NCBI GenBank assembly: GCA_902789735.1 | Contig: CADAOZ010000015.1 | Coordinates: forward strand, 1-64,000 | Source: an uncultured Lachnospiraceae bacterium | GTDB taxonomy: Bacteria > Bacillota > Clostridia > Lachnospirales > Lachnospiraceae | Reading direction: 5' to 3' | DNA length: 64,000 nucleotides | Part shown: positions 31,947 through 62,173 of the stretch, in pieces | Numbering within the stretch: the stretch's first letter is position 1 | Layout: each line of letters begins with the position of its first letter | Notes under the pieces: model-generated | What the model saw: only the letters and a program-made list of their open reading frames with translations | The model's database searches: none | What the model was told of the DNA's origin: nothing | Translations under genes and position numbers: made by a program

Positions 31947-33944
31947 ATGAAACGCAGATTAGCAAAGCTTCTGACGATTCTTCTTACAGTGTCTGCCATA
32001 TCAGGGGCGGAAGTGGTTTCCGCCGCCGCTGCCGCCCCGGCTCCCGAGCGGGTTATGGCAGCAGAGACAGACATGCCGGATGCCGCCGCTGTCGCAGAGA
32101 CCGTGGAGGAACCTGCGGAAGATCCGGTGCCGGAAACGCCGATGATCGGTGATACGGACGTAGCGGCCGATCCCATGGCGGATCTGGAACAGCAGGAAGA
32201 GAAAAAGGAAGAGCAGGCGGGTGAAACCGCTGCCGAAGGCATGACCGAAGAAGCCGCCGCGGAAGCGGCCACGGCGGAAGAGGCAGCAGTTCCGGCGGAA
32301 GAGCTCACGGAAGCGGAAGAGGCCGTGGAAGCAGTGACGGAAGAAGCGGCCGCCGCGGAGACCGAAGCGGCTGCCGAGGAGCTTACCGAAGAAGAGCTGG
32401 AAGAACTGGAGGCCTCCAAAATCAAGAAAGAAGGCTGGTATAAGGTCAACGGGATGAGCAGGTATTATTATCTGACCTCTGCCGGCACCTATACCTATGC
32501 CAGAAACAGATGGTTCGAGACCGAAAAGAACATGTGGCATTATTTTGACAGTAAGGGCCAGTCCTATCATAAGAAGGCTGCTTACATCAATAATAAGACC
32601 AGGTTCACTTCCGCCAGCCGGTTCGGCGGCAAAAAAGTTACATTCGGTGTAGGCAGGGTCTATTTCTCCAAAAACGGGGCGGCTCTGGTCAATGGCGTAA
32701 ATACCGATAAAAACGGATATGTTTACCGTAACGGCAGCTGGATGTTCATTTACCCCTCCAGCAATACGGCGGCCAGCGGCTGGTGCCTGATGAATAACGG
32801 CTGGCACTATTTTGATCCCTCGACCAATCTGACCGTGCTGGGCAACAGCCAGGGCTGGAAAAAGGTGACCGCCTCTTATAAGGGAAAACAGACATCTCCC
32901 AACGGCCGGATCACCCAGTCTGTCAATATCAAGGCAGGGACCCATCATTTTACCAAATACGGTGTTGTAGCCATTAAGTGCTGGAGAAAGATCGGCAATA
33001 TGTCCTTCTATTTCGGCGCGGACGGCATCCAGTATACCGGCTGGCACAGAATGAGCGCGGGCTGGTATTACTTCTCAAAGAACGGTACCTATAAGGGCTG
33101 GCACAAGATCGGAAAGACCGTAAAAGTCACGGATAAAAATCCTTCGACCGGCAAAAAGGAAACCATTACCGTCGCGGCCGGCAGCCACTATTTCACGTCC
33201 AAAGGCGTTTATGTCTACAACAAGTGGTATACCGTGAACGGCTGCAAGTTCTTCTTCAAGGCCAACGGCCTGCAGGCGCTGGGCTGGTGGAAGCTGGGGA
33301 GCCGCACTTACTACATCACCAAAAAGAAGGGCGCCCTGAAGGGACGGCAGAAGATCAGCGGCAAAGAATATTATTTCAACCCGGACGGCGTCATGCAGAC
33401 CGGCTGGCAGAGCATTAACGGTTCCTGGTATTATTTTAATTCCAAGGGAGTCATGCGGAAAAATACCAGTGTGAACGGCGTATGGCTGGGCAGCAGCGGC
33501 AGGGCCCAGTCCTCGGGGTCGGAGTTTTCCATGATGATGAAGGCCCAGGGACTGTCCAGTCCGACCAACTACCTGATTCTGGTCAACCGGTCCACCCATC
33601 GTGTCGGAATCTATAAAGGCAGCAAGGGCCACTGGTCAGAAGTTAAATATTTTGCCTGCGGGGATGGCAAGTACAGTACCCCTACTGTAGAAGGCACTTT
33701 CTACCGGGGCATCCGTATGCTCTACTTTGATTCCGGTTCGGCCAGATGCTGGTACGCGACCCAGATCTGGGGCAATTATCTGTTCCACTCGGTGCTTTAC
33801 AGCCAGGAAAGTTATCCCAGAACGGTCATAGACGGGACACTGGGAGCAGGCGTCTCCCATGGATGCGTCCGTCTACAGGTAGACAACGCCAGATGGATCT
33901 ATAATAATATCCCGTCAAATACCAAAATCGTGATCTATCACTGA
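31947..33944 (+). CDS. Secreted L,D-transpeptidase with choline-binding-type repeats (first copy)
   Basis: 665 residues. Signal peptide of about 26 residues, an Ala/Glu-rich acidic stretch to about 150, then a run of cell-wall-binding repeats (G-W-Y-K-V-N-G, G-W-H-Y-F-D, T-G-W-H-R-M-S-A-G-W-Y-Y-F) to about 520, and a YkuD domain with V-S-H-G-C-V-R-L, nucleophile Cys640. Such enzymes make 3-3 peptidoglycan cross-links or attach proteins; the aromatic repeats bind choline or related polymer decorations. Starts 40 bases after telA with an AGAAGGG site and is followed by a terminator. A paralogue lies next to it. Confidence 0.92.
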   Translation: MKRRLAKLLTILLTVSAISGAEVVSAAAAAPAPERVMAAETDMPDAAAVAETVEEPAEDPVPETPMIGDTDVAADPMADLEQQEEKKEEQAGETAAEGMTEEAAAEAATAEEAAVPAEELTEAEEAVEAVTEEAAAAETEAAAEELTEEELEELEASKIKKEGWYKVNGMSRYYYLTSAGTYTYARNRWFETEKNMWHYFDSKGQSYHKKAAYINNKTRFTSASRFGGKKVTFGVGRVYFSKNGAALVNGVNTDKNGYVYRNGSWMFIYPSSNTAASGWCLMNNGWHYFDPSTNLTVLGNSQGWKKVTASYKGKQTSPNGRITQSVNIKAGTHHFTKYGVVAIKCWRKIGNMSFYFGADGIQYTGWHRMSAGWYYFSKNGTYKGWHKIGKTVKVTDKNPSTGKKETITVAAGSHYFTSKGVYVYNKWYTVNGCKFFFKANGLQALGWWKLGSRTYYITKKKGALKGRQKISGKEYYFNPDGVMQTGWQSINGSWYYFNSKGVMRKNTSVNGVWLGSSGRAQSSGSEFSMMMKAQGLSSPTNYLILVNRSTHRVGIYKGSKGHWSEVKYFACGDGKYSTPTVEGTFYRGIRMLYFDSGSARCWYATQIWGNYLFHSVLYSQESYPRTVIDGTLGAGVSHGCVRLQVDNARWIYNNIPSNTKIVIYH

Positions 33945-34267: not shown

Positions 34268-36253
34268 ATGAAACGCAGAATTTCACTGTTACTTGCAGTC
34301 ATTATGACCGCGGCGACAGTCGCGGCTGCCAGCGTGGACATCAATGCCGCTGAGACAGGCAATGACGCATCGGCAGGCCAGACCGTTGTTGAAGAGACAA
34401 AGGAAGAAGAGGAAGCAGAACCGGTTCCGGCAGCAGAGGAAGAAGAACCCAATGAACCTGAGGCGGCAGAGGAGACCGGAGAAAAGGTCGAGGAAGCGGA
34501 AGCGGCAGATACCGGCATCGAAGAGACTGTAACAGAACCCGAAGAAGAGATTGCCGGAACGGAAGAGACAGCCGGGGAAGCAGTCGAAGAAATCACGGAA
34601 AATACAGAGGAATCCGCGATCGCTGCTACAGAAGCTGCTGTAGAAGATGAGACCCAGACAGAGGAAGAGATCAATCTTGACGAACTCGATGCCCTTATGG
34701 CATCCATCGTAACTGCGGAAGGCTGGTATGGTACGGGCAAAGGCTTCTCCAGATATTATTACAAGAACAGCAGCGGAGATTTTGTTTACGCGAAAAATCA
34801 GTTCTTTGAGACTGGCAAAAACGCGTGGCATTATTTTGATAAATACGGCAGATCCTACCATAAAGTGGCCACCTATTATAACAACAGCAAGTCAGTTACC
34901 GTGACAGGCCATGTTTCCGGCAAAAAGGTCACCTTTGGCAAAGGCCGCATCTATTTTAAGGACAACGGCCTTATTTATCTGAACGGCGTCAACACAGATA
35001 AGAACGGTTATGTTTACAAGAACGGCAGCTGGATGTTCATTTATCCCAAGACCAACGTTGCGGCCAGCGGCTGGTGCCTGATGAACAACGGCTGGCATTA
35101 TTTCGATCCTACGACCAACCTGACCGTACTCGGCAACAGCCAGGGCTGGAAGAGCATCAACGCAGCATATAAGGGAACACAGACATCTCCCAACGGTAAA
35201 GTGAAGGAGACCGTCAATATCAAGGCCGGCACCCATCATTTCTCAAAGACAGGTGTCCTTGCCCGTAATTGCTGGCGCAAGATCGACAATATGTCCTTCT
35301 ATTTTGACGCTTACGGCATCCAGTACAGCGGCTGGCACCGGATGGAAGGCGGCTGGTACTACTTCACAAAGACCGGCACCTATAAAGGCTGGCATAAGAC
35401 GACCAAGACTGTAACCAAGACAGATACCGATCCCAAGACAGGTAAGGAAGAGACCATTACCGTAGCGGCCGGTTCTCACTATTTCACCGACAAGGGCGTT
35501 TATGTCTACAACAAATGGTATACAGTAAACGGCTGCAAATTCTTCTTCAAGAACAACGGCCTGCAGGCTCTGGGCTGGTGGAAACTCGGCAAGAGCACAT
35601 GGTATATTACCAAGACCAAAGGCGCCCTGAAGGGTATGCAGACGATCGACAAGAAGAAATATCTCTTTGATACCAGCACCGGCGTTATGAAGACCGGCTG
35701 GCAGCAGTACAAGGGCAGCTGGTACTATTTCAACGCCAGCGGCGTTATGCAGGTAAACAAGACAGTTGACGGCGTCCGCCTGGGCAAGGACGGCAAGGCT
35801 GATGTAACAGGTACCAAGATGAGCATGATCATCAAAGCCCAGAAGTACTCCTCAGGTACCGGTTATCTGGCTCTGGTCAACAAGGACGCTCATAAGTGTG
35901 CGATCTTCAGAGGCAGCAAGGGTAACTGGAAGCTGGTCAGATACATGACCTGTTCGGTAGGCGCATGGGAAGGCGGACATTCCAGAACTCCTTCCGGTGA
36001 ATTTACGACCAGATTCAGAAGCTACAGAGTCACCTTTACGCAGTCTACCTGCTTCTACTGCACATTTGTAAGCGGCGGATTCTATTTCCACTCCATCCTG
36101 TATGAAAAATATTCATCAGGCCCTTACAGCGTGCTGGACGGCTCCCTGGGTATCCACATTTCCCACAGCTGTGTAAGACTGTCCCTGGACAACGTAAGAT
36201 GGATCTATAACAACATGCCTCTTTACACCAAAGTCGTTAGCTACGGCAGATAA
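34268..36253 (+). CDS. Secreted L,D-transpeptidase with choline-binding-type repeats (second copy)
   Basis: 661 residues with the same plan as its upstream neighbour: signal peptide of about 27, Glu-rich linker to about 150, aromatic cell-wall-binding repeats (for example G-W-H-Y-F-D-P-T-T-N-L-T-V-L) to about 515, and a YkuD domain ending in I-S-H-S-C-V-R-L, nucleophile Cys635. Here Ser replaces the Gly of H-G-C, which occurs in other active members. The catalytic domain has diverged more from the first copy than the repeat region. The ATG at 34268 has AAGGAGG before it. Probably a separate transcript, since a terminator precedes it. Confidence 0.92.
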   Translation: MKRRISLLLAVIMTAATVAAASVDINAAETGNDASAGQTVVEETKEEEEAEPVPAAEEEEPNEPEAAEETGEKVEEAEAADTGIEETVTEPEEEIAGTEETAGEAVEEITENTEESAIAATEAAVEDETQTEEEINLDELDALMASIVTAEGWYGTGKGFSRYYYKNSSGDFVYAKNQFFETGKNAWHYFDKYGRSYHKVATYYNNSKSVTVTGHVSGKKVTFGKGRIYFKDNGLIYLNGVNTDKNGYVYKNGSWMFIYPKTNVAASGWCLMNNGWHYFDPTTNLTVLGNSQGWKSINAAYKGTQTSPNGKVKETVNIKAGTHHFSKTGVLARNCWRKIDNMSFYFDAYGIQYSGWHRMEGGWYYFTKTGTYKGWHKTTKTVTKTDTDPKTGKEETITVAAGSHYFTDKGVYVYNKWYTVNGCKFFFKNNGLQALGWWKLGKSTWYITKTKGALKGMQTIDKKKYLFDTSTGVMKTGWQQYKGSWYYFNASGVMQVNKTVDGVRLGKDGKADVTGTKMSMIIKAQKYSSGTGYLALVNKDAHKCAIFRGSKGNWKLVRYMTCSVGAWEGGHSRTPSGEFTTRFRSYRVTFTQSTCFYCTFVSGGFYFHSILYEKYSSGPYSVLDGSLGIHISHSCVRLSLDNVRWIYNNMPLYTKVVSYGR

Positions 36254-36290
36254 ACGGCATACGGAGTGATTCAGATCTCAGAAAAACAAA

Positions 36291-36322
36291 ACACCCGCGG
36301 CAGCGCCGCGGGTGTTTTTTTT
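36291..36322. terminator. Bidirectional terminator
   Basis: ACACCCGCGGC (36291-36301) and GCCGCGGGTGT (36305-36315) form an 11-bp perfect stem with a 3-base loop, followed on the plus strand by eight T and on the minus strand by TTTGTTTTT. It ends the transpeptidase transcript and, from the other side, the glycan operon. Confidence 0.9.
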
Positions 36323-36377: not shown

Positions 36378-36743
36378 TCAGAAATGATATCTGGAAATAA
36401 TGATCCCGATAATGATAATCGCCACGCCGATGACCTTTCGGCGGGAGATTTTTTCTTTCAGAATAAAATATCCCATGAGAAAGACCCAGATAAATATGGT
36501 AGCTGTAATACAGGGCATGACAGACATGGGTACGTGGATCAGAGCAATCTGATTGATGGCCAGTGTCAGAAAAAGGAGCCCGTAAGACAGGATCACTCTC
36601 CAGTTGAGAAACTTCCAGATAAAGCTCTTATTTGTGGTCTGATTGGCCTGCATCTTCAGCAGGATCTGGCTGAAGGCAGAAAGGAAAGTACCCAGGATGG
36701 CCAGACCATAGCAAAGCTGGGGAGAAAAAAGCTCAGAACTCAT
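36378..36743 (-). CDS. Small EmrE/ArnF-like membrane protein
   Basis: 121 residues with four predicted transmembrane helices (L-G-T-F-L-S-A-F-S-Q-I-L-L-K in the first; L-S-Y-G-L-L-F-L-T-L-A; A-T-I-F-I-W-V-F-L-M-G; I-G-V-A-I-I-I-I-G-I-I). G-T-F-L-S-A-F-S-Q-I-L-L-K and L-K-E-K-I-S-R-R-K-V-I-G match the SMR/EamA pattern of ArnF-like subunits. It overlaps the previous gene by 11 bases; the two probably form a heterodimer. Inferred role: flipping an undecaprenyl-phosphate-linked sugar across the membrane. Confidence 0.8.
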   Translation of the reverse strand: MSSELFSPQLCYGLAILGTFLSAFSQILLKMQANQTTNKSFIWKFLNWRVILSYGLLFLTLAINQIALIHVPMSVMPCITATIFIWVFLMGYFILKEKISRRKVIGVAIIIIGIIISRYHF

Positions 36744-37089
36744 CAGACATACTCACCACCATTCCAATTGTAATAACCACGATTCCGATGATCTGCTGCA
36801 GAGTGATTGTCTCACCGAATATCAGGATGGCCCAGACAAAAATCAGGATATAACTGATACCTCTGCGCAGATAAGCTGTTGTCAGAGGAAGACGTTCCAG
36901 AATCAGCTGCCATATGACTGCGTAGACGCCAAGCAGGACGACCGCGATGATGAACCAGACGAAATAGCCGGTGGAAAGAAATCCGTATCTGCCGCCGATC
37001 TTCAGGCAGGCGCTGGTCAGACTTTCCAGAAATATAGCAATAAAGGCCAGGATAAAGACATTCCGCTTGTTATCCAGAAAATGATTCAT
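36733..37089 (-). CDS. Small EmrE/ArnE-like membrane protein
   Basis: 118 residues and four predicted helices (F-I-L-A-F-I-A-I-F-L-E-S; F-V-W-F-I-I-A-V-V-L-L; I-L-I-F-V-W-A-I-L-I-F; I-I-G-I-V-V-I-T-I-G-M-V-V). The first helix has the Glu found in many SMR transporters (A-I-F-L-E-S-L-T-S-A-C-L-K) and F-G-E-T-I-T-L-Q-Q-I-I-G is typical of the last loop. Start overlaps the GT2 stop by four bases (ATGA). It forms a pair with the next gene, like ArnE-ArnF, so a lipid-linked sugar flippase is the most likely function; a drug exporter is less likely in this operon. Confidence 0.8.
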   Translation of the reverse strand: MNHFLDNKRNVFILAFIAIFLESLTSACLKIGGRYGFLSTGYFVWFIIAVVLLGVYAVIWQLILERLPLTTAYLRRGISYILIFVWAILIFGETITLQQIIGIVVITIGMVVSMSDEF

Positions 37090-38063
37090 GCGCCGGCCTC
37101 CTTGTCCCGCCGGCTGCGGCCGGGCGCGTTATAGGTCTGGCGGATCACGAACTGGGGCGAATTATTGAGAGATATATAGATCCTGCCGATGTATTCGCCG
37201 ATCAGTCCCAGCATGAACATGATCATACCGCCGATAAACAGGAGCATGGCCATCAGGGAGCTGTAGCCGATGGCTGTGGTCGGGACCAGCAGCTTATGAA
37301 CGACCGTATAGATGACCATCAGGGCGCCCAGAAAGGCAAAGAGCATGCCGCAGGTAGTCGCGATCCGCAGAGGTTTTACGGAAAAAGCGGTAAAGCTGTT
37401 GAGCCAGAGTGCGAATGACCTGCGGAAATTGTAATGGCCGACGCCAATTGTACGTTCCCGTTCTTCCATTTCCACGTTGCAGACCCGTTTGGTGGACCGC
37501 AGCATCAGGCCGGACATATAAGGGTAGGGATTGGTATATTTAATAATCTCGTCACGGACAAATTTCCGCATGACAGAGAAATTGGAGAATTTCAGATCCC
37601 TGGATTTACCCAGCAGCCAGGTGGCCACGCTGTCATTGACATAGGAACCGAAGTTCTTGAAGCCGGACTGTTTCTTTTTGGGATATTTGGCAATGGCAAC
37701 ATCGTAATTGCCTTCTGTCAGCGGCGCCATCAGGTCCCAGAGCCGGTCGGCCGGACACTGCTGGTCATCATCTATAAAGACGACATAATCCCCTTCCGCG
37801 AAATGACAGCCGCACATCAGCGCGTTATGACGGCCGCCGTTCTTGGCCAGGTCGACTGCGATGACCTTCGGGTCAGCAGCCGCATATTTGCGGAGTACGT
37901 CCATGACACCGTCCGGGGAGCAGTCGTTTACAGCTATGATCTGATAATCGAATGCCGGCTTCTGACGGACAATATCCCGGAGCTCATCAATGACCAGGCC
38001 TACAGAACCTTCGCTGGCGTAGCAGGGAATAATAAAACTAATCAGTTCTTGTTGTTTGTTCAA
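37086..38063 (-). CDS. Polyprenyl-phosphate glycosyltransferase, GT2 (ArnC/GtrB-like)
   Basis: 325 residues. GT-A fold with F-I-I-P-C-Y at the start, N-D-C-S-P-D-G near 47 and the metal motif F-I-D-D-D-Q-Q-C near 97, then two C-terminal membrane helices (F-A-F-L-G-A-L-M-V-I-Y; L-F-I-G-G-M-I-M-F-M-L-G), as in DPM1, GtrB and ArnC. These enzymes load a nucleotide sugar onto undecaprenyl phosphate. Its gene is four bases after the aminotransferase and overlaps the SMR gene, so it should pass a sugar to the flippase pair. Donor sugar is inferred from the aminotransferase (see findings). Confidence 0.9.
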   Translation of the reverse strand: MNKQQELISFIIPCYASEGSVGLVIDELRDIVRQKPAFDYQIIAVNDCSPDGVMDVLRKYAAADPKVIAVDLAKNGGRHNALMCGCHFAEGDYVVFIDDDQQCPADRLWDLMAPLTEGNYDVAIAKYPKKKQSGFKNFGSYVNDSVATWLLGKSRDLKFSNFSVMRKFVRDEIIKYTNPYPYMSGLMLRSTKRVCNVEMEERERTIGVGHYNFRRSFALWLNSFTAFSVKPLRIATTCGMLFAFLGALMVIYTVVHKLLVPTTAIGYSSLMAMLLFIGGMIMFMLGLIGEYIGRIYISLNNSPQFVIRQTYNAPGRSRRDKEAGA

Positions 38064-38067
38064 TGGT

Positions 38068-39201
38068 TCAGTCCTTCTTAAAATATTCTTTGACCAGGCG
38101 GATGACCGTCTGCAGGTCCTCTTCTGTCATTCCGTAGTACAGGGGGAGACGGACCAGCCGGTCGCTTTCGCTGGTGGTATATCTGTCCTTACCGTGGAAG
38201 CGGCCGAAACGATAGCCGGCCGGGGAGGAATGAAGGGGTACATAGTGGAAAACGCAGGAGACCCCGTTCGCTTTCATATATCGGATGAAATCTGTGCGCT
38301 CGGCCAGATCCCGCAGTTTGATATAGTACATATGGGCGTTATGGACACAGTCCGCCGGAACGGTGGGCTGTTCGATCCTGCCTGCTTCCGCCAGAGGGCG
38401 GAGAGCCTCATGGTAGGTATTCCAGACGTGCAGGCGGGCCTCATTGATCATGTCAGCCTGCTGCAGCTGGGCCCAGAGATAAGCGGCGTTCATGTCGCTG
38501 GGCAGATAGCTGCTGCCGTAATCGACCCAAGTATATTTGTCGACCTGGCCGCGGAAGAAGCGGGCACGGTTGGTACCCTTTTCGCGGAGAATTTCGGCTG
38601 CTTCCAAAGCCCATGCATGGTTAATGACCAGAGCGCCGCCCTCTCCCATGGAATAATTCTTGGTCTCGTGGAAAGAATAGCAGCCAAAGTCGGCGATGGT
38701 ACCCAGCGCTCTTCCTTTATAGGTGGACATCACACCCTGGGCAGCATCTTCAATGACTTTAAGTTTGTAACGGGCTGCAATATCCATAATGGTATCCATT
38801 TCGCACGCGACGCCCGCGTAATGGACGGCGATGATGGCTTTGGTGCGGCCGGTGATGGCATCCTCGATTTTGGTCTCATCAATGTTCATGGTATCCGGAC
38901 GGACATCCACAAATACAGGCACGGCGCCGGTCAGGACAACGGCGGTCGCGGTGCTGGAAAAGGTATAGCTGGGGAGAATGACTTCATCCCCGGTTTTCAG
39001 ACCGCACAGGAGCGCTGCCATTTCAAGGGCAGAGGTTCCGCTGGTCGTCAGGAGGACCTTGCTGGCCTTGAAACGGTCTTCGATCCAGGCGTGGCATTTC
39101 TTTGTAAAAGCGCCGTCACCGCAGATCTTATGGGCGTCGACTGCTTCCTGGACATATTTCATTTCTGTTCCGATATAAGGAGGGACATTAAAAGGTATCA
39201 T
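38068..39201 (-). CDS. DegT/DnrJ/EryC1-family sugar aminotransferase, WecE/RffA-like
   Basis: 377 residues. Fold-type I PLP enzyme: S-G-T-S-A-L-E-M near 55-62, I-E-D-A-A-Q-G near 155, and the Schiff-base lysine in F-H-E-T-K-N-Y-S near 178. The N-terminus N-V-P-P-Y-I-G and the block V-F-H-Y-V-P-L-H-S-S-P-A-G fit WecE/RffA, which makes dTDP-4-amino-4,6-dideoxygalactose from the keto sugar using glutamate. The dTDP-sugar dehydratase is not in this window. Second gene of the operon, 87 bases after the GtrII-like gene. Confidence 0.9.
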   Translation of the reverse strand: MIPFNVPPYIGTEMKYVQEAVDAHKICGDGAFTKKCHAWIEDRFKASKVLLTTSGTSALEMAALLCGLKTGDEVILPSYTFSSTATAVVLTGAVPVFVDVRPDTMNIDETKIEDAITGRTKAIIAVHYAGVACEMDTIMDIAARYKLKVIEDAAQGVMSTYKGRALGTIADFGCYSFHETKNYSMGEGGALVINHAWALEAAEILREKGTNRARFFRGQVDKYTWVDYGSSYLPSDMNAAYLWAQLQQADMINEARLHVWNTYHEALRPLAEAGRIEQPTVPADCVHNAHMYYIKLRDLAERTDFIRYMKANGVSCVFHYVPLHSSPAGYRFGRFHGKDRYTTSESDRLVRLPLYYGMTEEDLQTVIRLVKEYFKKD

Positions 39202-39288
39202 AAACTCTCTCTTTTCTTTAAACTGGTGCAGGGAGCAGAAGGCAGGAATGGACTTCCGTTCCGAAAGCCGCGTCAGGAAAGGTCCGGA

Positions 39289-40893
39289 TCAATTATCAAA
39301 ATCTCCGACACAGACAACGACCATGTCTCCCACATCCCATATTTCATAGGCGTGCATTCCCCGGGCCTGACAGCCGTTCCAGTATTTGCTGTAGGTCTCG
39401 GATTCAACATCTTCAAAAACATCTATATCATATCCAAAATAGGACAGATATTCATCCATCAGCTGTCCTTCGAACTGCCTTCTGTAGAACTCTATGGCAG
39501 AGGACAGGTTGGTGTCAACATATTTGACATGGGTCTCGGTATAACCGGGATCGATGATCTCCCTTGCCTGAAAATACAGGCGGCCGTTCCAGCTGTCCGG
39601 ATCCACTGTGATCTGGCGGTCTGTCCAGCGGCTGTAATGGGTGGGGCCGACAAAGGTCACTTTGCGGCCATAGTACTGGGAGACCAGGGTCTGTCCCAGC
39701 ATGCGGATCTGCGCCGCTTCATTCTCAGACCGCAGGTTATCCAGGGACAGGATCATGTTCAGGTAGGCGCTCTGCCGCCAGCACAGGAAGAGCAGTATCA
39801 GTACGGCCCCCCTGTAGACGCACTGGGGAGCTGACTGGAATTTCGCCAGCAGCAGATACAGGGTGAAGCCTGTAAAGACCGTCAGGGTCAGGGCTGTCCG
39901 GTAAGGCATGGGCGTGCCCTGGATCAGGGTCTGGAAGAACAGGGACAGTCCGATAAAGAATCCCAGCAGCAGGGGCAGCAGGCTCTTTCTGCGGACACAG
40001 AGTACAATAACCATGATTATAAAGAGAATCACGCAGATGTCAAATATTGTGATCGGAAAATAAACAAGACCGTTCACGCCGTACCATCTGGCGGATTTCC
40101 GGACCAGGGTAACAAGCTCTTTACGGGTCAGAGGCCAGGCAATCTGGGTGTCTCCCCGGAAGGAACGCTCCAGGTGCAGCAGGAGCATGATCGCCTTGCC
40201 GACCGCGAACTTGATAACAACGCCCAGGATCAGAGGCAGGGCAAACACCAGTCCCTCCGGGAACCAGCCATAAGCTTTATAAAGACCCTTTTCCTGTACG
40301 CAGTATTTATAGAAAAGGATGCAGAGGACGGCCGTCACGTATACGAACATGAGCGACTCGCCGCTGGCAGCCACAAAAGCAAGAATAAGAGAGTGCCAGA
40401 GCAGGCTCTGCCAGGTAAATTTGGGGCGGCATACCTGACTGAGCAGTACCAGGGCGACCAGCATGAAGCAGCCGGGCACGATAATTGTGGCACCGCAGGT
40501 GTATTCCCAGATTTCATTGATCAGGGGATAGGTAATCAGAAGGCCTGCCGTAACGGTATAGGTCCAGACATTTTTCCGGTCTCCGGTTAGGTGGTACAGG
40601 ACGCAGCAGGCCAGGGCGGCTGCCAGCATCATGAAATGAATGGACAGGAATTTGTCCAGATAAGGGGTGCATATGGCATAGGTAGTCATCTTTTTCCAGA
40701 TTACGCCGCCCCAGCGGTATTCGCTGAGCCAGATATTGCCGTCAACATAGAGTTCCGTGGCCAGGTCATCTATGCTGACAGTCCGGTTCATGATGGAGAA
40801 GCCAAAAGAAGCCCAGGTCAGGAAAAAGACCGGCATCCAGAAGCGTTTCTTTCTGCCAATATCGTTATAAAAATTTTTCAGGACCTGTTTCAT
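39289..40893 (-). CDS. Polytopic glucosyltransferase-like membrane protein (GtrII-like)
   Basis: 534 residues with about ten membrane helices and a C-terminal extracytoplasmic part. R-T-V-S-I-D-D-L-A-T-E-L near residue 37 has the Asp pair common in GT-C enzymes and GtrII (PF14264) proteins; the later W-E-Y-T-C-G-A-T and E-S-L-M-F-V-Y fit the same family. GtrII-type enzymes move a sugar from a polyprenyl carrier to a surface polysaccharide on the outer face of the membrane. First gene of the operon, so it probably acts last. Acceptor polymer unknown. Confidence 0.75.
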   Translation of the reverse strand: MKQVLKNFYNDIGRKKRFWMPVFFLTWASFGFSIMNRTVSIDDLATELYVDGNIWLSEYRWGGVIWKKMTTYAICTPYLDKFLSIHFMMLAAALACCVLYHLTGDRKNVWTYTVTAGLLITYPLINEIWEYTCGATIIVPGCFMLVALVLLSQVCRPKFTWQSLLWHSLILAFVAASGESLMFVYVTAVLCILFYKYCVQEKGLYKAYGWFPEGLVFALPLILGVVIKFAVGKAIMLLLHLERSFRGDTQIAWPLTRKELVTLVRKSARWYGVNGLVYFPITIFDICVILFIIMVIVLCVRRKSLLPLLLGFFIGLSLFFQTLIQGTPMPYRTALTLTVFTGFTLYLLLAKFQSAPQCVYRGAVLILLFLCWRQSAYLNMILSLDNLRSENEAAQIRMLGQTLVSQYYGRKVTFVGPTHYSRWTDRQITVDPDSWNGRLYFQAREIIDPGYTETHVKYVDTNLSSAIEFYRRQFEGQLMDEYLSYFGYDIDVFEDVESETYSKYWNGCQARGMHAYEIWDVGDMVVVCVGDFDN

Positions 40894-41142
40894 ATAAATA
40901 AGAGTTTCCTTTCTGTTCTAATATATGCCAGTCACTGCATAAAATACATACAGTTAATAACATTATACTATCAGACGGACCGGATTTTAATCCGTTTTTT
41001 CAAAGCCGGCCCAGGATTTCATAAAATGTTAAGGATATTTCACAGTATATACATGTTTTTTTTCGTAATCTGCGTTACAATAGGAGAGGTTGATATAGTA
41101 GTTATATAACAGGTAACAATATTATATATGTGGAGGAATCCT
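40894..41142. other. Divergent promoter region between the glycan operon and ftsH
   Basis: 249 AT-rich bases. The minus strand has TATAAT (plus 40963-40968) with a weak TTAAAA 17 bases away. The plus strand has several AT-rich elements (TTGATA near 41090, then TATTAT) but no clear choice. A small hairpin CGGAT-TTTA-ATCCG with six T lies near 40982-41000. Confidence 0.4.
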
Positions 41143-43071
41143 ATGAAAGAAATAAAACCACCCCGGAAATCGTTAATGATTTACTGGATTACCGTCATTG
41201 CCGTTATCCTGCTCTTTAATGTGTTTGTGGAGCCCATGCTCAGTTCTGTCAGTATTAAGGAGGTGGATTACAATACCTTCATTACCATGACAGAAGAGAA
41301 GAAGATCGCGGAAGTCGAGATTGCCGGCAATCAGATCCTGTTCAAAGACCAGGAGGGCAATTATTATAAGACCGGCCCCATAGAGGACCCCGGTCTGGTA
41401 GACCGCCTGCATGAGAACGGCGTTGCCTTTAAGAGCCAGATCATACAGCAGGCATCTCCGATTATGACCTTTGTGCTGAACTGGGTCCTTCCCATGGTCA
41501 TCTTTTTTGCTGTCTACCGGATGCTGTCCAAACGGATGATGGACAAGATGGGCGGTGCCAATTCCATGATGTTCGGCATGGGCAAAAGCAACGCCAAAGT
41601 GTATGTCAAATCCACGGAGGGAATCCGTTTCTCGGACGTGGCCGGAGAAGAGGAAGCCAAGGAAAACCTGCAGGAGATCGTGGAATATCTGCATGATCCC
41701 GGCAAATATAAGGAGATCGGTGCCTCCATGCCCAAGGGCATTCTGCTGGTGGGCCCTCCCGGAACCGGTAAGACCATGCTGGCCAAGGCCGTGGCCGGAG
41801 AAGCCAGTGTGCCCTTCTTTTCCATGTCCGGTTCGGAATTCGTCGAGATGTTCGTCGGTATGGGCGCCTCCAAGGTAAGGGATCTCTTCCGGCAGGCCAA
41901 GGAAAAAGCGCCATGCATCGTATTTATTGATGAGATCGACGCCATCGGCAAAAAGCGTGATTCCGGAAATTTCGGCGGCAATGACGAAAGAGAGCAGACC
42001 CTGAACCAGCTGCTGACGGAAATGGACGGCTTTGAAGAGAATCTGGGCGTCGTTATTCTGGCGGCTACCAACCGTCCGGAATCCCTGGATCCGGCCCTGA
42101 CCCGTCCGGGACGTTTTGACAGGCGCGTGCCGGTTGAGCTGCCCGACCTGAAAGGCCGTGAGGATATCCTCCGGGTCCATGCCCGCAAGATCAAAGTAGC
42201 TGAGGATGTGGATTTCAACAAGGTGGCCAGAATGGCAGCCGGCGCTTCCGGCGCGGAACTGGCCAACGTCGTCAATGAAGCGGCCCTGCGGGCCGTCCGG
42301 GACGGCAGGAAATATGCCACCCAGGCCGATCTGGAGGAGAGCATCGAGGTCGTTATTGCCGGCTATCAGAAGAAGAACGCCATTCTGTCCGATAAGGAAA
42401 AGCTGATCGTGTCCTATCATGAAATCGGCCATGCGCTGGTGGCAGCCATGCAGACCCATTCAGCTCCCGTACAGAAGATCACGATCATACCCCGTACTTC
42501 CGGCGCTCTGGGCTATACCATGCAGGTCGAGGAAGAGGGCAATCATTACCTGATGAGCAAGACAGAAATGGAAAATCAGATCGCCACCCTCTGCGGCGGC
42601 CGCGCGGCGGAGGAGGTAGAGTTCGGCTCCATCACCACCGGCGCTTCCAATGATATTGAAAGAGCCACCCGGATGGCCAGATCCATGATCACCCGTTACG
42701 GGATGAGCGATGATTTCGGTATGGTCGCCCTGGAAACGGTCAACAACCAGTATCTGGGCGGAGATACCTCTCTGGCATGTTCCGCAGAGACCGCGGCCCT
42801 GATTGACAGGAAGGTCATTGAACTGGTCCGGACCCAGCATGAGAAGGCCCGGCAGATCCTGACCGACAATAAATACATTATGGATGCTCTGGCAGAGTAT
42901 TTATATAAGAAGGAAACCATCACCGGCGATGAATTTATGCTGATCATCCGGGAACAGACCCGTCAGAGACAGCTGGATGTCCGACAGGCTATTGCGATTC
43001 CGCCTGCCGGGGAGGCCGGGCCTGCGGAAGAGTCCGGACAGGCAGAGGCTGGCGCGCCGGAGGAGACCTGA
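41143..43071 (+). CDS. ftsH: ATP-dependent zinc metalloprotease FtsH
   Basis: 642 residues. Membrane-anchored AAA+ protease that degrades membrane and regulatory proteins. Two N-terminal helices (about 11-30 and 105-125), Walker A G-P-P-G-T-G-K-T near 204, Walker [29 protein letters not shown], and the zinc site H-E-I-G-H near 426 with a downstream Asp region. ATG 41143 follows GGAGGA. The C-terminal tail is Pro/Glu/Ala-rich. Of normal length; no hflK/C partner nearby. Confidence 0.97.
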
Positions 43072-44495: not shown

Positions 44496-44864
44496 ATGTC
44501 CGGTGAGCATGTGAATGACCATACAGAGATTCCGGCCGGAAGCGACGTCCCGGGAACGGAACAGGAAAACGGCTGCTGCGGCAGTGACCGTCATAAAGTC
44601 AGGTCTGAAAAGGAATACAGGGATCTGATGAACCGGCTGAGCCGGATTGAGGGACAGGTAAGGGGCATCCGCAGAATGCTGGAGGATGACGCGTACTGTA
44701 TTGATATCCTGACCCAGGTATCCGCTGCCAACGCAGCGCTGAACAGTTTCAGTAAAACACTGCTGGCCAATCATATCCGGACCTGCGTCGCGGAAGATGT
44801 ACGGGAAGGCCATGAGGAGAAGCTGGATGAGCTGCTGAAGACTCTTCCCAAACTGATGAAATAA
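44496..44864 (+). CDS. csoR: Copper-sensing repressor CsoR
   Basis: 122 residues, all-helical DUF156 protein. The three copper ligands are visible: Cys in D-D-A-Y-C-I-D-I-L (helix 2), His and Cys in L-A-N-H-I-R-T-C (helix 3). The core begins at residue 45 (L-M-N-R-L-S-R-I-E-G-Q-V-R-G); the first 40 residues are an extra polar tail with a C-C pair (E-N-G-C-C-G-S-D). Binds the palindromes upstream and dissociates on Cu(I). ATG 44496 has AAGGAAGG; copA follows 31 bases later. Confidence 0.93.
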   Translation: MSGEHVNDHTEIPAGSDVPGTEQENGCCGSDRHKVRSEKEYRDLMNRLSRIEGQVRGIRRMLEDDAYCIDILTQVSAANAALNSFSKTLLANHIRTCVAEDVREGHEEKLDELLKTLPKLMK

Positions 44865-44895
44865 GGTTTTTCCGGGCAGAAAGTAAGGAGGAAAG

Positions 44896-47493
44896 ATGGA
44901 ACAGTATACAGTAACGGGCATGAGCTGCGCTGCCTGCCAGGCCCGTGTTGAAAAAGCGGTGCGGAAGGTACCGGGCGTGACGGACTGCAGTGTCAGTCTG
45001 CTGACCAATTCCATGGGCGTAGAAGGGACTGCTTCCCCGGAACAGATTATTGCGGCTGTGGAAAATGCCGGCTATGGCGCCGGGATCCGGGGCGCCGGCG
45101 ATACCCGGAAAAGGGGCAGTCTGTCTGCACGGATTGCGGAAGAAGAGGAAGCCCTGCGGGACAGGACAACGCCGGTCCTGAAGAAACGGCTGCTGGCTTC
45201 GGTGGGATTTCTGCTGGTCCTGATGTATTTTTCCATGGGACATATGATGTGGAACTGGCCCCTGCCGCCCTTTTTTGAAAACAACCATGTGGCTATGGGC
45301 CTGGTGCAGCTGCTGCTGGCGGGCATTATCATGGTCATCAACCAGAAATTTTTTATCAGCGGTTTTAAGAGCCTCTTTCATGGGGCGCCCAATATGGATT
45401 CTACCATCGCTCTGGGATCCGGTGCGGCTTTTATTTACAGTACGGTCATGCTGCTGGCAATGACCCGGGCGCAGGCGGACGGAGACAGCGCCAAAGTCAT
45501 GGAATATATGATGGAGTTCTATTTTGAATCCGCAGCCATGATTCTGACCCTGATCACCGTCGGGAAGATGCTGGAATCCTATTCCAAAGGCAAGACGACC
45601 AATGCGCTCCGGAGTCTGATGAAGCTGGCTCCGGAGACAGCCACTGTGATCCGGGACGGCGCGGAGATGACAGTCCCGATTGACGACGTCCGGGAGGGAG
45701 ATATTTTTACCGTCAGGCCCGGTGAAAATATACCGGTCGACGGTATTATTCTGGAAGGCAGCAGTGCTGTTAATGAGGCGGCCCTGACCGGAGAGAGCAT
45801 TCCTGTGGACAAGGAGGAGGGAGACAGTGTTTCGTCGGCTACGCTGAACCAGTCAGGCTTCCTCAAATGCCGGGCCACCCGGGTCGGAGAGGATACTTCT
45901 CTGGCCAGGATCATTTCCATGGTCTCGGATGCCGCCGCGACCAAGGCGCCTGTCGCCAGGCTGGCGGATACGATCTCCGGCTATTTTGTACCGGCCGTCA
46001 TCGGAATCGCGCTGGTGACCCTGGCCGCCTGGCTGCTGGCCGGACAGACGCCCGGCTTTGCCCTGGCAAGGGCCATCAGTGTGCTGGTGGTCAGTTGTCC
46101 CTGCGCACTGGGGCTGGCCACGCCGGTCGCCATCATGGTCGGCAGCGGCCTGGGCGCCCGTAACGGCATCCTGTTCAAGAACGCGGAAGCCCTGCAGGAG
46201 ACCGGAAATATCCAGATCGCGGCCCTGGATAAAACGGGGACCATTACCAACGGACAGCCCCGGGTCACGGACCTGCTGCCGGCTGCAGGTGTGACAGCGG
46301 AAGAACTGCTGGAGAAGGCGTACGCCCTGGAACTGAAAAGCGAGCATCCGCTGGCCAACGCGGTCACTGTATATGGCAGAGAACAGGGGCTGACGGCGGA
46401 CGCGGCCGATGATTTCCGGGCGCTGCCCGGGAACGGACTGACCGGAACATATCGGGGAAAGAAACTGACGGGAGGCAGCCTCAAATACATCAGCGGCCTG
46501 GGACCTGTGAGCGCGGCCGTCCGGCAGGAATGCCGGGATCTCTCGGAAGCGGGCAAGACCCCGCTGCTGTTCATGGAGAATGGAAAGCTGCTGGGCATCA
46601 TCGCGGTGGCGGATACCATCAAGGAAGATTCTGCCCAGGCGATTCGTGAACTGCGCAATATGGGCATCCATGTCGTTATGCTGACCGGTGACAACCGGCG
46701 GACTGCGGAAGCCATCGGACGGGAGGCCGGCGTCAACGAGGTCATCGCGGATGTGCTCCCGGACGGGAAGGAAGCCATTATCCGCCGCCTGCAGGAGAAG
46801 GGCAAAGTGGCTATGATCGGCGACGGAATCAACGACGCGCCCGCTCTGACCAGGGCGGATATCGGCATCGCCATAGGAGCGGGCACGGACGTAGCCATGG
46901 ACGCGGCCGATGTTGTTCTTATGAAGAGCAGGCTGACGGATGCTTCCGCGGCAGTCCGCCTGAGCCGGCAGACCTACCGCAATATTCTGGAGAATCTCTT
47001 CTGGGCGCTCTTTTATAACGTCCTGCTGATTCCGGTGGCGGCCGGCGCCTATGTTCATCTGCTTGGAATCACCATGGATCCCATGCTGGGTGCCGCGGCC
47101 ATGAGCCTGTCCAGCTTCTGTGTTGTCAGCAATGCCCTGCGCCTGAACCTGTTCAGGGTCCATGACGACAGCCGCGACCGTAAACGGAAACATCCCGTGG
47201 AGACAGATGCGGAAGGATACCTCCTCCCGCACTTGTCCCAGGCGGAAGAAGATAACAGTCAAAAAGAAAGTGAGGAATCCGAAATGAAGAAAACCATCAG
47301 AATCGAAGGCATGATGTGTCCCCATTGTGAGGCGACTGTAAAGAAAGCCCTGGAAAAACTGCCTCAGGTCGACAGCGCCGAGGTCAGTCATACAGCGGGT
47401 ACCGCCGTTGTCAGCCTGAATGCGGAGATTGAGGATGCAGTCTTGAAAGAGACCGTCGAAGCCAAAGATTACGATGTGACCGGCATCGAGTAA
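44896..47493 (+). CDS. copA: Copper-exporting P1B-type ATPase with C-terminal CopZ-like domain
   Basis: 865 residues. Pumps Cu(I) out of the cytosol. N-terminal HMA domain with M-S-C-A-A-C (8-13), eight membrane helices, transmembrane copper motif S-C-P-C-A-L near 400, phosphorylation site D-K-T-G-T-I-T near 445, S-E-H-P-L-A near 480 and G-D-G-I-N-D-A-P-A near 640. After an acidic linker (Q-A-E-E-D-N-S-Q-K-E-S-E-E) a second HMA domain, residues 797-865, has M-M-C-P-H-C, like the chaperone CopZ. An ATG at 47284 with GAGGAA seven bases before it could start CopZ on its own. Repressed by CsoR. Confidence 0.95.
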   Translation: MEQYTVTGMSCAACQARVEKAVRKVPGVTDCSVSLLTNSMGVEGTASPEQIIAAVENAGYGAGIRGAGDTRKRGSLSARIAEEEEALRDRTTPVLKKRLLASVGFLLVLMYFSMGHMMWNWPLPPFFENNHVAMGLVQLLLAGIIMVINQKFFISGFKSLFHGAPNMDSTIALGSGAAFIYSTVMLLAMTRAQADGDSAKVMEYMMEFYFESAAMILTLITVGKMLESYSKGKTTNALRSLMKLAPETATVIRDGAEMTVPIDDVREGDIFTVRPGENIPVDGIILEGSSAVNEAALTGESIPVDKEEGDSVSSATLNQSGFLKCRATRVGEDTSLARIISMVSDAAATKAPVARLADTISGYFVPAVIGIALVTLAAWLLAGQTPGFALARAISVLVVSCPCALGLATPVAIMVGSGLGARNGILFKNAEALQETGNIQIAALDKTGTITNGQPRVTDLLPAAGVTAEELLEKAYALELKSEHPLANAVTVYGREQGLTADAADDFRALPGNGLTGTYRGKKLTGGSLKYISGLGPVSAAVRQECRDLSEAGKTPLLFMENGKLLGIIAVADTIKEDSAQAIRELRNMGIHVVMLTGDNRRTAEAIGREAGVNEVIADVLPDGKEAIIRRLQEKGKVAMIGDGINDAPALTRADIGIAIGAGTDVAMDAADVVLMKSRLTDASAAVRLSRQTYRNILENLFWALFYNVLLIPVAAGAYVHLLGITMDPMLGAAAMSLSSFCVVSNALRLNLFRVHDDSRDRKRKHPVETDAEGYLLPHLSQAEEDNSQKESEESEMKKTIRIEGMMCPHCEATVKKALEKLPQVDSAEVSHTAGTAVVSLNAEIEDAVLKETVEAKDYDVTGIE

Positions 47494-57170: not shown

Positions 57171-57629
57171 ATGCGTAATGCGGAAAGGAGATGGCTGCGG
57201 GCTGTGATGGTCAGACAAATTTCGCTCCTGATTTATGCGGGCGGCGCGGCGGTCACCGACTGGCGCGGACACAAAATATATAATGTCTGGACCTTTTCCT
57301 TTATGGCCGTCGGATTTGTCCTGCGTTTTCTGCAAGGCGGGCCGGGCGCGCTGCTGCCGGCCGCGGGAGCTGCGGCCGGACTGATTCTGTTCCTTTTTCC
57401 TTTCTATAAAGCGGGCGGCCTGGGAGCCGGGGATCTCAAATATCTGGCAGGGATTTCCCTGCATATGGAGCTCCGGGCCTTTCTCTATTTCCTGTTTTTT
57501 ACATTTCTGTTCGCGCTTGCGGGCGCGGCCGCCGGCTCCGGCGGCCGGCTCCGCGGCAGTCACAGGACAGGGATCGGTCTGCCCGCGCTGGTCTCTGTTC
57601 TCTTCTATCTGGGAGGTCTATACCCATGA
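57171..57629 (+). CDS. Prepilin peptidase (TadV/CpaA-like)
   Basis: About 152 residues with four to five hydrophobic segments. The two catalytic aspartates of A24 peptidases are visible: A-A-V-T-D-W-R-G-H-K-I-Y-N near residue 23 and G-G-L-G-A-G-D-L-K-Y near 85. Cleaves the leader of Flp-type pilins at the membrane. The start is uncertain (57141, 57171 or 57207, all in frame); 57171 is chosen because the promoter's -10 covers 57141. The tail overlaps the next start by four bases. Confidence 0.82.
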   Translation: MRNAERRWLRAVMVRQISLLIYAGGAAVTDWRGHKIYNVWTFSFMAVGFVLRFLQGGPGALLPAAGAAAGLILFLFPFYKAGGLGAGDLKYLAGISLHMELRAFLYFLFFTFLFALAGAAAGSGGRLRGSHRTGIGLPALVSVLFYLGGLYP

Positions 57630-58690
57630 ATACATGTCTTGATGCTGCGGGGCCGTCTGCCCGGACGGCGGTCTCTGCAGCGATAACCGTCTGCGATTCT
57701 GAATACGTCTATGCCCTGCGCCTGCAGGAATATCTGCAGGGACAAAAGTTTAACGGCAATGCAGCAGTTTTCAGCAGCCGCGGCCTTCTGGACCGGAGCC
57801 TGCGGGAGGGAAAGACGGACAGTAAGGGAATCCTGGTCATCGGGGAGAGAGAATACCGGGAACGGCCTGTCGACTGGGATCCGGCCCGGATTCTGGTCCT
57901 GAACGAGTCGGGCGCTTACGAGGGGGCTTCTCCCCGTGCCATATGTAAATACCAGAATGCGGCCGCCATCGCCCTGCAGATCCGCAGGCTCTGCCTGGAG
58001 CTGGATCTTCCGGCAGCCTCTTTGCGGCATGGGCCGGAGCTCCGCGTGATCGGTTTTCATACCCCCCTGACAGGATGTCTGCAGACCGGCACAGCCCTGT
58101 GCCTGGCCCGGAAACTGGCGGAAAGGGACCCGGTCCTATATATGAACCTGGAGGCCTGGCCCTGTCTGGAGCAGCTGACGGGTCTTTCTTTTGAGGGTTC
58201 TCTGGGAGATCTGATCTATTTTAATGACTGCGCCCCGGAAAAGGTCGCGGCCAGGCTGGTCATGATGGAAAGAAAGCTGGAAAGGGCGTCCCTCCTGCCG
58301 CCGGTCCGCGGACCGGAAGAGCTGCGCGCCATCCAGACAGATCAGTGGCTGCGCCTTCTGGAAACGATTGGCAGGGTCACGGAATATAAATATCTAATCC
58401 TGGATCTGGGCCCCCTGGTGAACGGACTGCAGCAGATTCTGGCCCGCTGCGGAAGGATCTTCCGGATCATCCGGGAGGATCCCCTGTCTGCTGCCAGGGA
58501 TGCCGCCTGCGACCGGTATCTGCAGGAACACGGCGGAGAAGAAGTACAGCTGAAGACCCGGAAAATCCTGCTTCCCCCGATGGAAGAGCCGGGGCTCCGC
58601 CCGGCAGGGCTCCGCCGGGACAGTCTGTATCGGTACGCTGCCGGTCTGGCAGACCGGATCCGCGCGGCAGAGGCAGGAAATCCGCAATAA
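57626..58690 (+). CDS. TadZ/CpaE-like protein with degenerate P-loop
   Basis: 354 residues. The N-terminal part looks like a receiver/atypical domain (I-T-V-C-D-S-E-Y-V-Y-A-L-R), the C-terminal part a MinD-like ATPase fold. At the P-loop position it reads G-F-H-T-P-L-T-G-C-L-Q-T-G-T, lacking the lysine of Walker A; V-L-Y-M-N-L-E-A-W and Y-L-I-L-D-L-G near 255 follow the family order. TadZ places the pilus machine at its site. Position between prepilin peptidase and TadA supports the call. Overlaps upstream gene by four bases. Confidence 0.75.
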   Translation: MNTCLDAAGPSARTAVSAAITVCDSEYVYALRLQEYLQGQKFNGNAAVFSSRGLLDRSLREGKTDSKGILVIGEREYRERPVDWDPARILVLNESGAYEGASPRAICKYQNAAAIALQIRRLCLELDLPAASLRHGPELRVIGFHTPLTGCLQTGTALCLARKLAERDPVLYMNLEAWPCLEQLTGLSFEGSLGDLIYFNDCAPEKVAARLVMMERKLERASLLPPVRGPEELRAIQTDQWLRLLETIGRVTEYKYLILDLGPLVNGLQQILARCGRIFRIIREDPLSAARDAACDRYLQEHGGEEVQLKTRKILLPPMEEPGLRPAGLRRDSLYRYAAGLADRIRAAEAGNPQ

Positions 58691-58704
58691 GAAAGGAGAA
58701 GGAT

Positions 58705-59928: not shown

Positions 59929-60634
59929 CTGCAGAATCCGCTTCCTGGCCGAAGGAATGGTCATCTTTCTGGTGACGGGGAAACTGTTCTATGACTCTTT
60001 TTGGGCCTGCGTATTTATGCTTCCGGTCCTGCTCCCTTACTGCAGGAAAAGGGCGGAGCAGGAAAGGGAGCGGAAGACCCGGGAACTGACAGCGCAGTTC
60101 CGGGACGCTCTGGGAAGCCTGATCACGGCCCTCCGGGCCGGCTATTCCGCGGAAAACGCCTTCCGGGAAACAGCCCGGGATATGGACTTCCAGTTCGGCA
60201 GGGATTCTCTGATCGCGGCAGAGCTTACACGGATCGCCCATGGAATCGACAACCGTATCCCTCTGGACCGGCTGCTGCAGGATTTTGCGGACCGGAGCGG
60301 GGCGGAAGAGATCGTGGAATTCGCCCAGGTCTTCGCAATCGCCCGTAAGAGCGGCGGCAACATGGTGGAGATCCTGGAAAAGACGGCGGATCAGATCCGG
60401 GACCGGATCGATATCGAAAACGAGATCCGGATCCTTCTGGGCAGCCGGCGGATGGAGCAGCGGATCATGGACGCCGTTCCCTTTCTGATCATCGCTTATA
60501 TAGGGACCGTTTCCAAAGGATTTTTCGATGTGCTTTACCATAACGCGGCCGGCGTTGTGTTCATGACGGTCTGTCTGGCGGTCTATCTGGGGGCCTTTCT
60601 TTTATCTGAAAAGATCCTGCAGATCCGCATGTGA
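59900..60634 (+). CDS. TadB-like platform protein (type II secretion F domain)
   Basis: About 244 residues. After two N-terminal helices (A-E-G-M-V-I-F-L-V-T-G; F-W-A-C-V-F-M-L-P-V-L-L) comes a cytosolic T2SSF region with A-L-R-A-G-Y-S-A-E-N-A-F-R-E near 85, F-A-I-A-R-K-S-G-G-N-M near 145, and two C-terminal helices. The start is uncertain: TTG 59900 keeps the short N-terminus usual in this family, ATG 59843 has GGAG-type sites but lies deep in tadA, ATG 59958 is also possible. Forms the membrane platform of the Flp pilus with TadC. Confidence 0.85.
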   Translation: MQWQGWRLSDCRIRFLAEGMVIFLVTGKLFYDSFWACVFMLPVLLPYCRKRAEQERERKTRELTAQFRDALGSLITALRAGYSAENAFRETARDMDFQFGRDSLIAAELTRIAHGIDNRIPLDRLLQDFADRSGAEEIVEFAQVFAIARKSGGNMVEILEKTADQIRDRIDIENEIRILLGSRRMEQRIMDAVPFLIIAYIGTVSKGFFDVLYHNAAGVVFMTVCLAVYLGAFLLSEKILQIRM

Positions 60635-60667
60635 CAGGAAGCGTCCGGAAAGGAGGCGTGGCAGGAT

Positions 60668-62140: not shown

Positions 62141-62173
62141 GCGGAAACTGAAAACAGAAGGGAGATAAAAAAT

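Follow-up and report, generated by a model that had tools for sequence, protein, structure and literature searches.

A five-gene cassette predicted to load, flip and transfer a 4-amino-6-deoxy sugar in a Lachnospiraceae genome

In the Arn system (ArnBCADTEF), 4-amino-4-deoxy-L-arabinose (L-Ara4N) is placed on lipid A, and ArnA formylates the sugar before it is loaded on a lipid carrier; lipid A is not expected in Lachnospiraceae. Here we describe a five-gene cassette with related step logic in a 64,000-nucleotide stretch of DNA from an uncultured Lachnospiraceae bacterium (contig CADAOZ010000015.1, positions 1 to 64,000; this whole stretch is called the window). The cassette combines a predicted synthesis gene for 4-amino-4,6-dideoxygalactose (Fuc4N) with a GT2 glycosyltransferase, a pair of small multidrug resistance (SMR) family proteins and a GT-C membrane glycosyltransferase.

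Gram-positive multi-component systems such as CsbB-GtcA-YfhO and GtlA-GtcA-GtlB combine loading by a GT2 enzyme, a small flippase and an external GT-C (PMC8035078). Citrobacter ORF14 is reported to be similar to EmrE and ArnE and is called a predicted multidrug and toxic compound extrusion (MATE) transporter, and mycobacterial Rv3789 is assigned to the SMR family (PMC11127046). Lipid-transporting SMRs are described as found mainly in Proteobacteria (PMC9574504), and a survey reports N-acetyl-Fuc4N (Fuc4NAc) only in Gammaproteobacteria (PMC7725333).

The cassette and its recurrence in relatives

Five genuine open reading frames follow one another on the minus strand at 36378-40893 and form one predicted operon:

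39289..40893, minus strand: operon gene 1, GtrII-type GT-C membrane glycosyltransferase (534 aa; PF14264 matches in four orthologs)
38068..39201, minus strand: WecE, dTDP-4-amino-4,6-dideoxygalactose transaminase (377 aa; NF008687, 626.5 bits)
37086..38063, minus strand: GT2 polyprenyl-phosphate sugar transferase of ArnC/GtrB/PgfS type (325 aa, TTG start; Pfam Glycos_transf_2)
36733..37089, minus strand: SMRa, ArnE/ArnF-like flippase subunit, predicted N-in (118 aa; hhalign and lysine/arginine bias)
36378..36743, minus strand: SMRb, ArnE/ArnF-like flippase subunit, predicted N-out (121 aa; hhalign and the opposite lysine/arginine bias)

The GT-C and wecE genes are separated by 87 bp and the wecE and GT2 genes by 4 bp; the GT2 and SMRa genes overlap by 4 bp, and the SMRa and SMRb genes by 11 bp. 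An earlier note on this DNA had named these five genes in this order, and all are present as it described. It had also proposed that an amino sugar is made, loaded on undecaprenyl phosphate, flipped by the SMR pair and transferred by the GT-C. This order of steps is supported as a prediction. Supported too is a functional link between the genes, seen again in varied gene orders and genome-wide.

With a confidence only a little above even, we propose that the operon and a distant ligase make an acylated Fuc4N, load it on undecaprenyl phosphate, flip it and transfer it to a surface polymer. Deoxythymidine diphosphate (dTDP)-4-keto-6-deoxyglucose would be supplied by RmlA and RmlB, whose genes lie outside the operon, and WecE would aminate it to dTDP-Fuc4N. 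An ATP-grasp ligase would then acylate the 4-amine of Fuc4N with an amino acid or some other acid, and the GT2 would transfer the acylated sugar onto undecaprenyl phosphate. SMRa and SMRb, acting as an antiparallel heterodimer, would flip the lipid-linked sugar across the membrane, and the GtrII-type GT-C would pass it to an acceptor, for which a polysaccharide of the wall or surface is the likeliest candidate.

WecE was identified at equivalog level, with 626.5 bits on NF008687 (cut-off 375) and 624.4 bits on TIGR02379 (cut-off 434.85), and it matched the solved structure 4piw end to end (residues 1-374, 550 bits). No other DegT-family gene of the host genome scores strongly (290 bits for WecE; six others over cut-off score 21-63 bits), a genome of 2.5 Mb in 37 contigs with a completeness of 93.6%. 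RmlA (G000:C21:27072-27932, 468 bits, cut-off 360.65) and RmlB (G000:C17:22338-23300, 500.4 bits, cut-off 365.1) are encoded on contigs other than that of the operon, and the three genes of the RmlA-RmlB-WecE route to dTDP-Fuc4N are thus all present over curated cut-offs. RmlA and RmlB were also over cut-off in all 10 genomes checked. RmlC had no match in the host genome, and RmlD none over cut-off (the best, 47.9, was on the RmlB gene itself); both were present in three relatives searched alongside. Since neither was recognised, WecE would be the sole recognised consumer of the RmlB product, other users not having been searched for. A sharing of this substrate between WecE and rhamnose synthesis was rejected on the same grounds, which also speak against the circumstance named in the earlier note as fatal to its reading, an aminotransferase feeding another pathway.

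The GT2 protein is over cut-off for Pfam Glycos_transf_2 and aligned over its full length with the solved structures of GtrB sll0501 (104 bits, residues 8-309) and ArnC (98 bits, residues 8-312). It is 26% identical to Escherichia coli ArnC (79/306). It is predicted to be of the undecaprenyl-phosphate-sugar synthase type, including its C-terminal part. The best NCBIfam models were PgfS (130 bits, cut-off 500) and ArnC (121 bits, cut-off 529), and because both match below their equivalog cut-offs the sugar is not readable from the GT2 sequence.

The two SMR proteins gave weak matches to the ArnE/ArnF models (32.8 and 34.2 bits, under the equivalog cut-offs of 92 and 99). Alignments of their families were compared as well: with hhalign, the SMRa family (alignment A1, 21 relatives) matched E. 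coli ArnE with a probability of 96.5% and ArnF with 61.7%, and the SMRb family (alignment A2, 21 relatives) matched E. coli ArnE with 96.1%. Counts of lysine and arginine in the loops were biased towards N-in for SMRa in 21/21 sequences and in the reverse sense for SMRb in 21/21. SMRa and SMRb are therefore of opposite predicted topology, as for an antiparallel heterodimer.

The window's GT-C itself matched no Pfam or NCBIfam model, and is assigned to the GtrII type through its orthologs. PF14264 (GtrII) was matched by the four GT-C orthologs of alignment A3 (in loci L153, L154, L155 and L157; best E 1.8e-15), to which the window protein is 39-43% identical, and two aspartates (D42-D43) are invariant across the five sequences. 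No solved relative was found for the GT-C, and its AlphaFold2 model from these five sequences was of low quality (pLDDT 45, pTM 0.39). A further search for GT-C homologs among the named loci, which are the best 80 of 584 relatives, gave only the same four.

Recurrence was measured in these named loci and in a family sample of 299 Lachnospiraceae genomes, close to one per genus. SMRa was counted from 86 bits, which kept 77 of the 88 genomes matched at E 1e-6; many of the rows under this threshold are immediate neighbours of a strong SMRa row and are probably its SMRb partners. The window's GT2 type was counted at E 1e-60. WecE was found in 98/299 genomes overall and in 66/77 of those with SMRa (Fisher p 4e-30), and also in 77/84 of those with the GT2 type. 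Moreover, 33/78 SMRa genes and 51/88 GT2 genes lie within 8 kb of WecE, where about 0.5% would be expected at random in a 3 Mb genome. The GT-C is much rarer, with matches in 6/299 genomes, the window's own included. Gene order in the WecE-SMR-GT2 loci is variable, which indicates that the association is not a single inherited block. Chance neighbourhood was rejected by this recurrence in varied orders together with the genome-wide co-occurrence.

An SMR pair is present within 10 kb in 30 of the 80 named loci, among them loci of Coriobacteriia (Olsenella, Adlercreutzia), Gemmiger, Fournierella and Solobacterium. Among the 12 closest named loci (L153-L164), eight carry WecE, GT2, ligase, SMRa and SMRb as a single run, and in four of these eight (L153, L154, L155 and L157) the run continues with a recognisable ortholog of the window's GT-C. 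In all four, the cassette stands between ftsH (77-78% identical to that of the window) and YkuD genes; telA follows further out in three of them, as in the window. From the agreement of these flanks, the four sister loci are the same locus as that of the window.

Probable acylation of the sugar

In close relatives, a gene for an ATP-grasp, amino-acid-ligase-like protein sits inside the cassette. Its ortholog in the host genome is on the same contig, 27 kb from the operon and beyond the window (G000:C15:67869-69089, corresponding to L243:11870-13090). This protein is 57-73% identical to the cassette ligases of the relatives, whereas its best match in the rest of the named set reaches 35%, and its solved kin are mostly ATP-grasp enzymes, including BacD and L-amino-acid ligases. 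Acylation of the sugar amine is a candidate role for this conserved ortholog. At other loci a GNAT acetyltransferase takes the place of the ligase. An acylating gene of either type, ligases fused to a domain dependent on pyridoxal phosphate (PLP) included, is found within 10 kb in 26/30 named SMR loci and in 22/32 SMR loci of the family sample.

Two arrangements were observed besides. Loci L185, L186 and L207 carry an acetyltransferase, a ligase and two GT2s, an arrangement suggestive of one sugar in two acylated versions. In L076 (8949-11093) ligase and PLP-dependent PALP domain are fused, and the protein may thereby provide the amino acid that it uses.

The distribution of the two acylating types was compared with the trees of the other cassette proteins. 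Left out were 30/128 GT2 rows without an acylating gene within 5 kb, as well as loci with two labelled GT2s or with both acylating types, and 80 loci remained. For these 80 loci, the GT2 tree required 4 changes of the ligase/acetyltransferase label (shuffle mean 24.9, lowest 19) and the WecE tree 7. Within the 41 of them that have SMRa, the numbers of changes were 1 for GT2, 4 for WecE and 5 for SMRa. The same picture was obtained without fused ligases (4 changes for GT2 and 8 for WecE; 1, 5 and 6 in the SMRa loci). The window's GT2 falls in a marked set of 12 tree rows that comprises itself, ten rows labelled ligase and one labelled none.

Acylation is likely to precede lipid loading and to take place at the dTDP stage: the GT2 tree tracks the acylating label, and acylation after loading would leave the GT2 indifferent to the acid. 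The likeliest product would be an N-acylated, perhaps N-aminoacyl, Fuc4N on undecaprenyl phosphate rather than a free amine.

Weighing the pathway, and the surroundings of the operon

Several observations weigh against the proposed pathway. First, the ligase lies outside the operon, among genes that look by eye like HIT-family, FHA-like and pilus-type genes, and it may serve something else. Second, an acylating gene is missing from the 10 kb around 4/30 named and 10/32 family SMR loci, and where the SMR pair itself is absent such a gene is almost as frequent in the family sample (41/67) and less frequent among the named loci (27/50); acylating genes thus accompany WecE, and not the SMR pair specifically. 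Third, and as the strongest counter-example, L163 (9986-14525), which is the same locus by its ftsH, WecE, GT2, YkuD and TelA genes, is devoid there of the SMR pair, the GT-C ortholog and the ligase. Its GT2 is the nearest to that of the window, and its only ATP-grasp match is one of 64 bits, 7.5 kb away; the parts absent from L163 may lie elsewhere in its genome, as the window's ligase does. Fourth, the five changes of label on the SMRa tree equal the lowest value of its shuffles (mean 8.3, lowest 5), gene linkage and co-inheritance account for part of the match between GT2 and label, and the trees were quick ones. Finally, the absence of RmlC and RmlD depends on a genome that is 93.6% complete, and the genome encodes a GtrA-type protein over cut-off, so that the SMR pair is not the sole candidate flippase and its assignment as flippase rests on linkage. 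L163 and the frequency of acylating genes at non-SMR loci slightly lowered our confidence in the full pathway.

It is unlikely that Fuc4N is loaded, flipped and transferred unsubstituted, giving a free surface amine like that of Ara4N on lipid A, with the distant ligase acting in another pathway. The operon itself contains no acylating gene, which this explanation would account for, as it would for the SMR loci that have none nearby; however, the ortholog of the relatives' cassette ligase is kept on the same contig, the window's GT2 belongs to the ligase-associated set, and GT2 phylogeny follows the acylating enzyme. The free amine altering surface charge that the earlier note had envisaged is not supported in that form, since at most SMR loci WecE has an N-acylating gene at no more than 10 kb and the ligase ortholog is retained, although the frequency of such genes at non-SMR loci tempers the point.

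A second explanation, also unlikely, makes the acceptor a protein instead of a wall glycan, as in the Pgf system of Streptococcus mutans. PgfS is indeed the best NCBIfam match of the GT2, at the sub-cut-off score given above, and the two YkuD proteins that adjoin the operon carry repeats of a wall-binding type. Against a protein acceptor, the GT-C is of GtrII type, a type known for the transfer of sugar on sugar, and the neighbouring genes by themselves name no acceptor.

We regard as quite unlikely an explanation in which the GT2, the SMR pair and the GT-C add an ordinary hexose, and the product of WecE goes into a different polysaccharide, the genes for which lie elsewhere in the genome. It draws on the GT2 sequence, which does not fix the sugar (PgfS, ArnC and GtrB are all among its best models or structures), on what appear by eye to be sugar-polymer synthesis genes near RmlA (C21) and RmlB (C17), and on L163, which retains WecE and GT2 without the other parts. 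It does not account for the position of the only strong DegT-family gene of the genome 4 bp from the GT2 gene, nor for a WecE-SMR-GT2 linkage that recurs in varied orders. Lastly, it is very improbable that the SMR pair exports drugs or polyamines and is next to sugar genes by accident: SMRa has weak, sub-cut-off matches to multidrug SMR models (PF00893, EbrA, QacC), and a helix 1 glutamate is kept in the window's SMRa group and absent from the other aligned relatives, but ArnF and ArnE are the best NCBIfam matches, hhalign to ArnE agrees, and SMRa co-occurs with WecE in 66/77 genomes and lies within 8 kb of it in 33/78 cases.

The acylated Fuc4N pathway may extend beyond this genome. We suggest only tentatively that N-aminoacyl-Fuc4N, or N-acetyl-Fuc4N where an acetyltransferase replaces the ligase, is exposed on the surface of many Lachnospiraceae and of some other gut Bacillota and Coriobacteriia, in part of these organisms by means of an SMR-heterodimer flippase, with the acyl group fixed before loading and read by a matching GT2. 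If so, about one-third of the sampled Lachnospiraceae genomes, those with WecE, may make a surface amino sugar, and ArnE-like SMR lipid transporters would be frequent in a Gram-positive family. An amino-acid cap would put a free alpha-amine on the sugar, a carbohydrate-borne counterpart of D-alanylation. The exchange of ligase for acetyltransferase beside similar genes offers a natural test of N-acyl recognition by polyprenyl-phosphate transferases.

The operon is bounded by ftsH (41128-43071, plus strand) and by a gene for a YkuD-domain protein (34268-36253, plus strand). Two sites were noted at its ends:

40962..40990, minus strand: promoter-like site 5' of the operon (TTAAAA-17-TATAAT, 10/12; a consensus match only)
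36288..36318, minus strand: terminator-like hairpin 3' of the last gene (14 pairs, 9 GC, then GTTTTT)

A better promoter-like match (12/12) lies within the GT-C gene, at 40043-40016, and in the scanned region promoter-like and terminator-like sites were each about twice as frequent as expected from shuffled sequence (14 versus 6.5, and 10 versus 4.7).

The operon is adjoined by neighbouring genes at 31947-33944 and 34268-36253 for two YkuD (L,D-transpeptidase) proteins that bear repeats of the choline-binding type, and YkuD-related genes also flank the cassette in L153, L154, L155, L157 and L163. In L154 (5175-9092), a gene for a 1306-aa CheB-CheR-PAS-histidine kinase-response regulator hybrid lies between ftsH and the cassette, with no counterpart there in the window; by eye, a similar gene occupies the same place in L153 and L155. 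Elsewhere on the contig, genes for a CsoR-like regulator and, after it, a P-type ATPase of the copper type that has metal-binding domains were recognised by eye at 44496-47493, as was a gene run from 57626-63824 up to C15:65861 that resembles a Tad/Flp pilus operon with prepilin peptidases.

Comparison with known systems

The parallel with Arn drawn in the earlier note holds for the logic of the steps and fails for membership. By prediction, the cassette and the Arn system have in common a 4-amino sugar, loading on undecaprenyl phosphate by a GT2, paired ArnE-like SMRs and an extracytoplasmic GT-C, and possibly N-acylation before loading. Arn uses uridine diphosphate (UDP)-Ara4N and a formyltransferase, whereas the cassette is predicted to use dTDP-Fuc4N from RmlA, RmlB and WecE, and an ATP-grasp ligase. 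The aminotransferase is of WecE and not of ArnB type (185 bits on the ArnB model, cut-off 631; 30% identity to E. coli ArnB). The GT-C was rejected as an ArnT, with an hhalign probability of 0.1% to E. coli ArnT. Neither an ArnA-like nor an ArnD-like gene is within the operon, ArnA not having been searched for genome-wide, and two PF01522 deacetylase-family genes are present elsewhere in the genome.

The RmlA/RmlB/WecE/WecD branch of enterobacterial common antigen synthesis shares WecE and the dTDP-Fuc4N route with the cassette. In that antigen, Fuc4NAc is built into a trisaccharide linked to undecaprenyl diphosphate, whereas the sugar of the cassette is predicted to be alone on undecaprenyl phosphate. 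The Pat/Pyl enzymes of the Gram-positive Bacillus cereus (UDP-yelosamine), by their description, likewise pair an aminotransferase with an ATP-grasp enzyme that acylates a 4-amino sugar. Pyl, which is said to acylate a UDP-linked 4-amino sugar, would be a precedent for the ligase; unlike the cassette, the B. cereus system uses UDP-FucNAc-4N and 2-oxoglutarate.

As the earlier note had surmised, no description of this gene set was found in the literature searched, a coverage that left most subscription papers outside. In the systems of ORF14 and Rv3789, too, a small flippase links the synthase of a polyprenyl-phosphate sugar to a GT-C, and the donors are pentofuranoses in contrast to the 4-amino sugar proposed here. 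CsbB-GtcA-YfhO and GtlA-GtcA-GtlB have GT2 loading, a small flippase and GT-C transfer outside the membrane, as is predicted for the cassette; they differ from it by GtrA- or Wzx-type flippases and by their sugars, galactose and N-acetylglucosamine (PMC8035078), where the cassette has an SMR pair and a predicted 4-amino-6-deoxy sugar with its own synthesis gene. In conclusion, the cassette is Arn-like in its logic, is not a member of the Arn system, and is better placed among the systems of multi-component transmembrane glycosylation.

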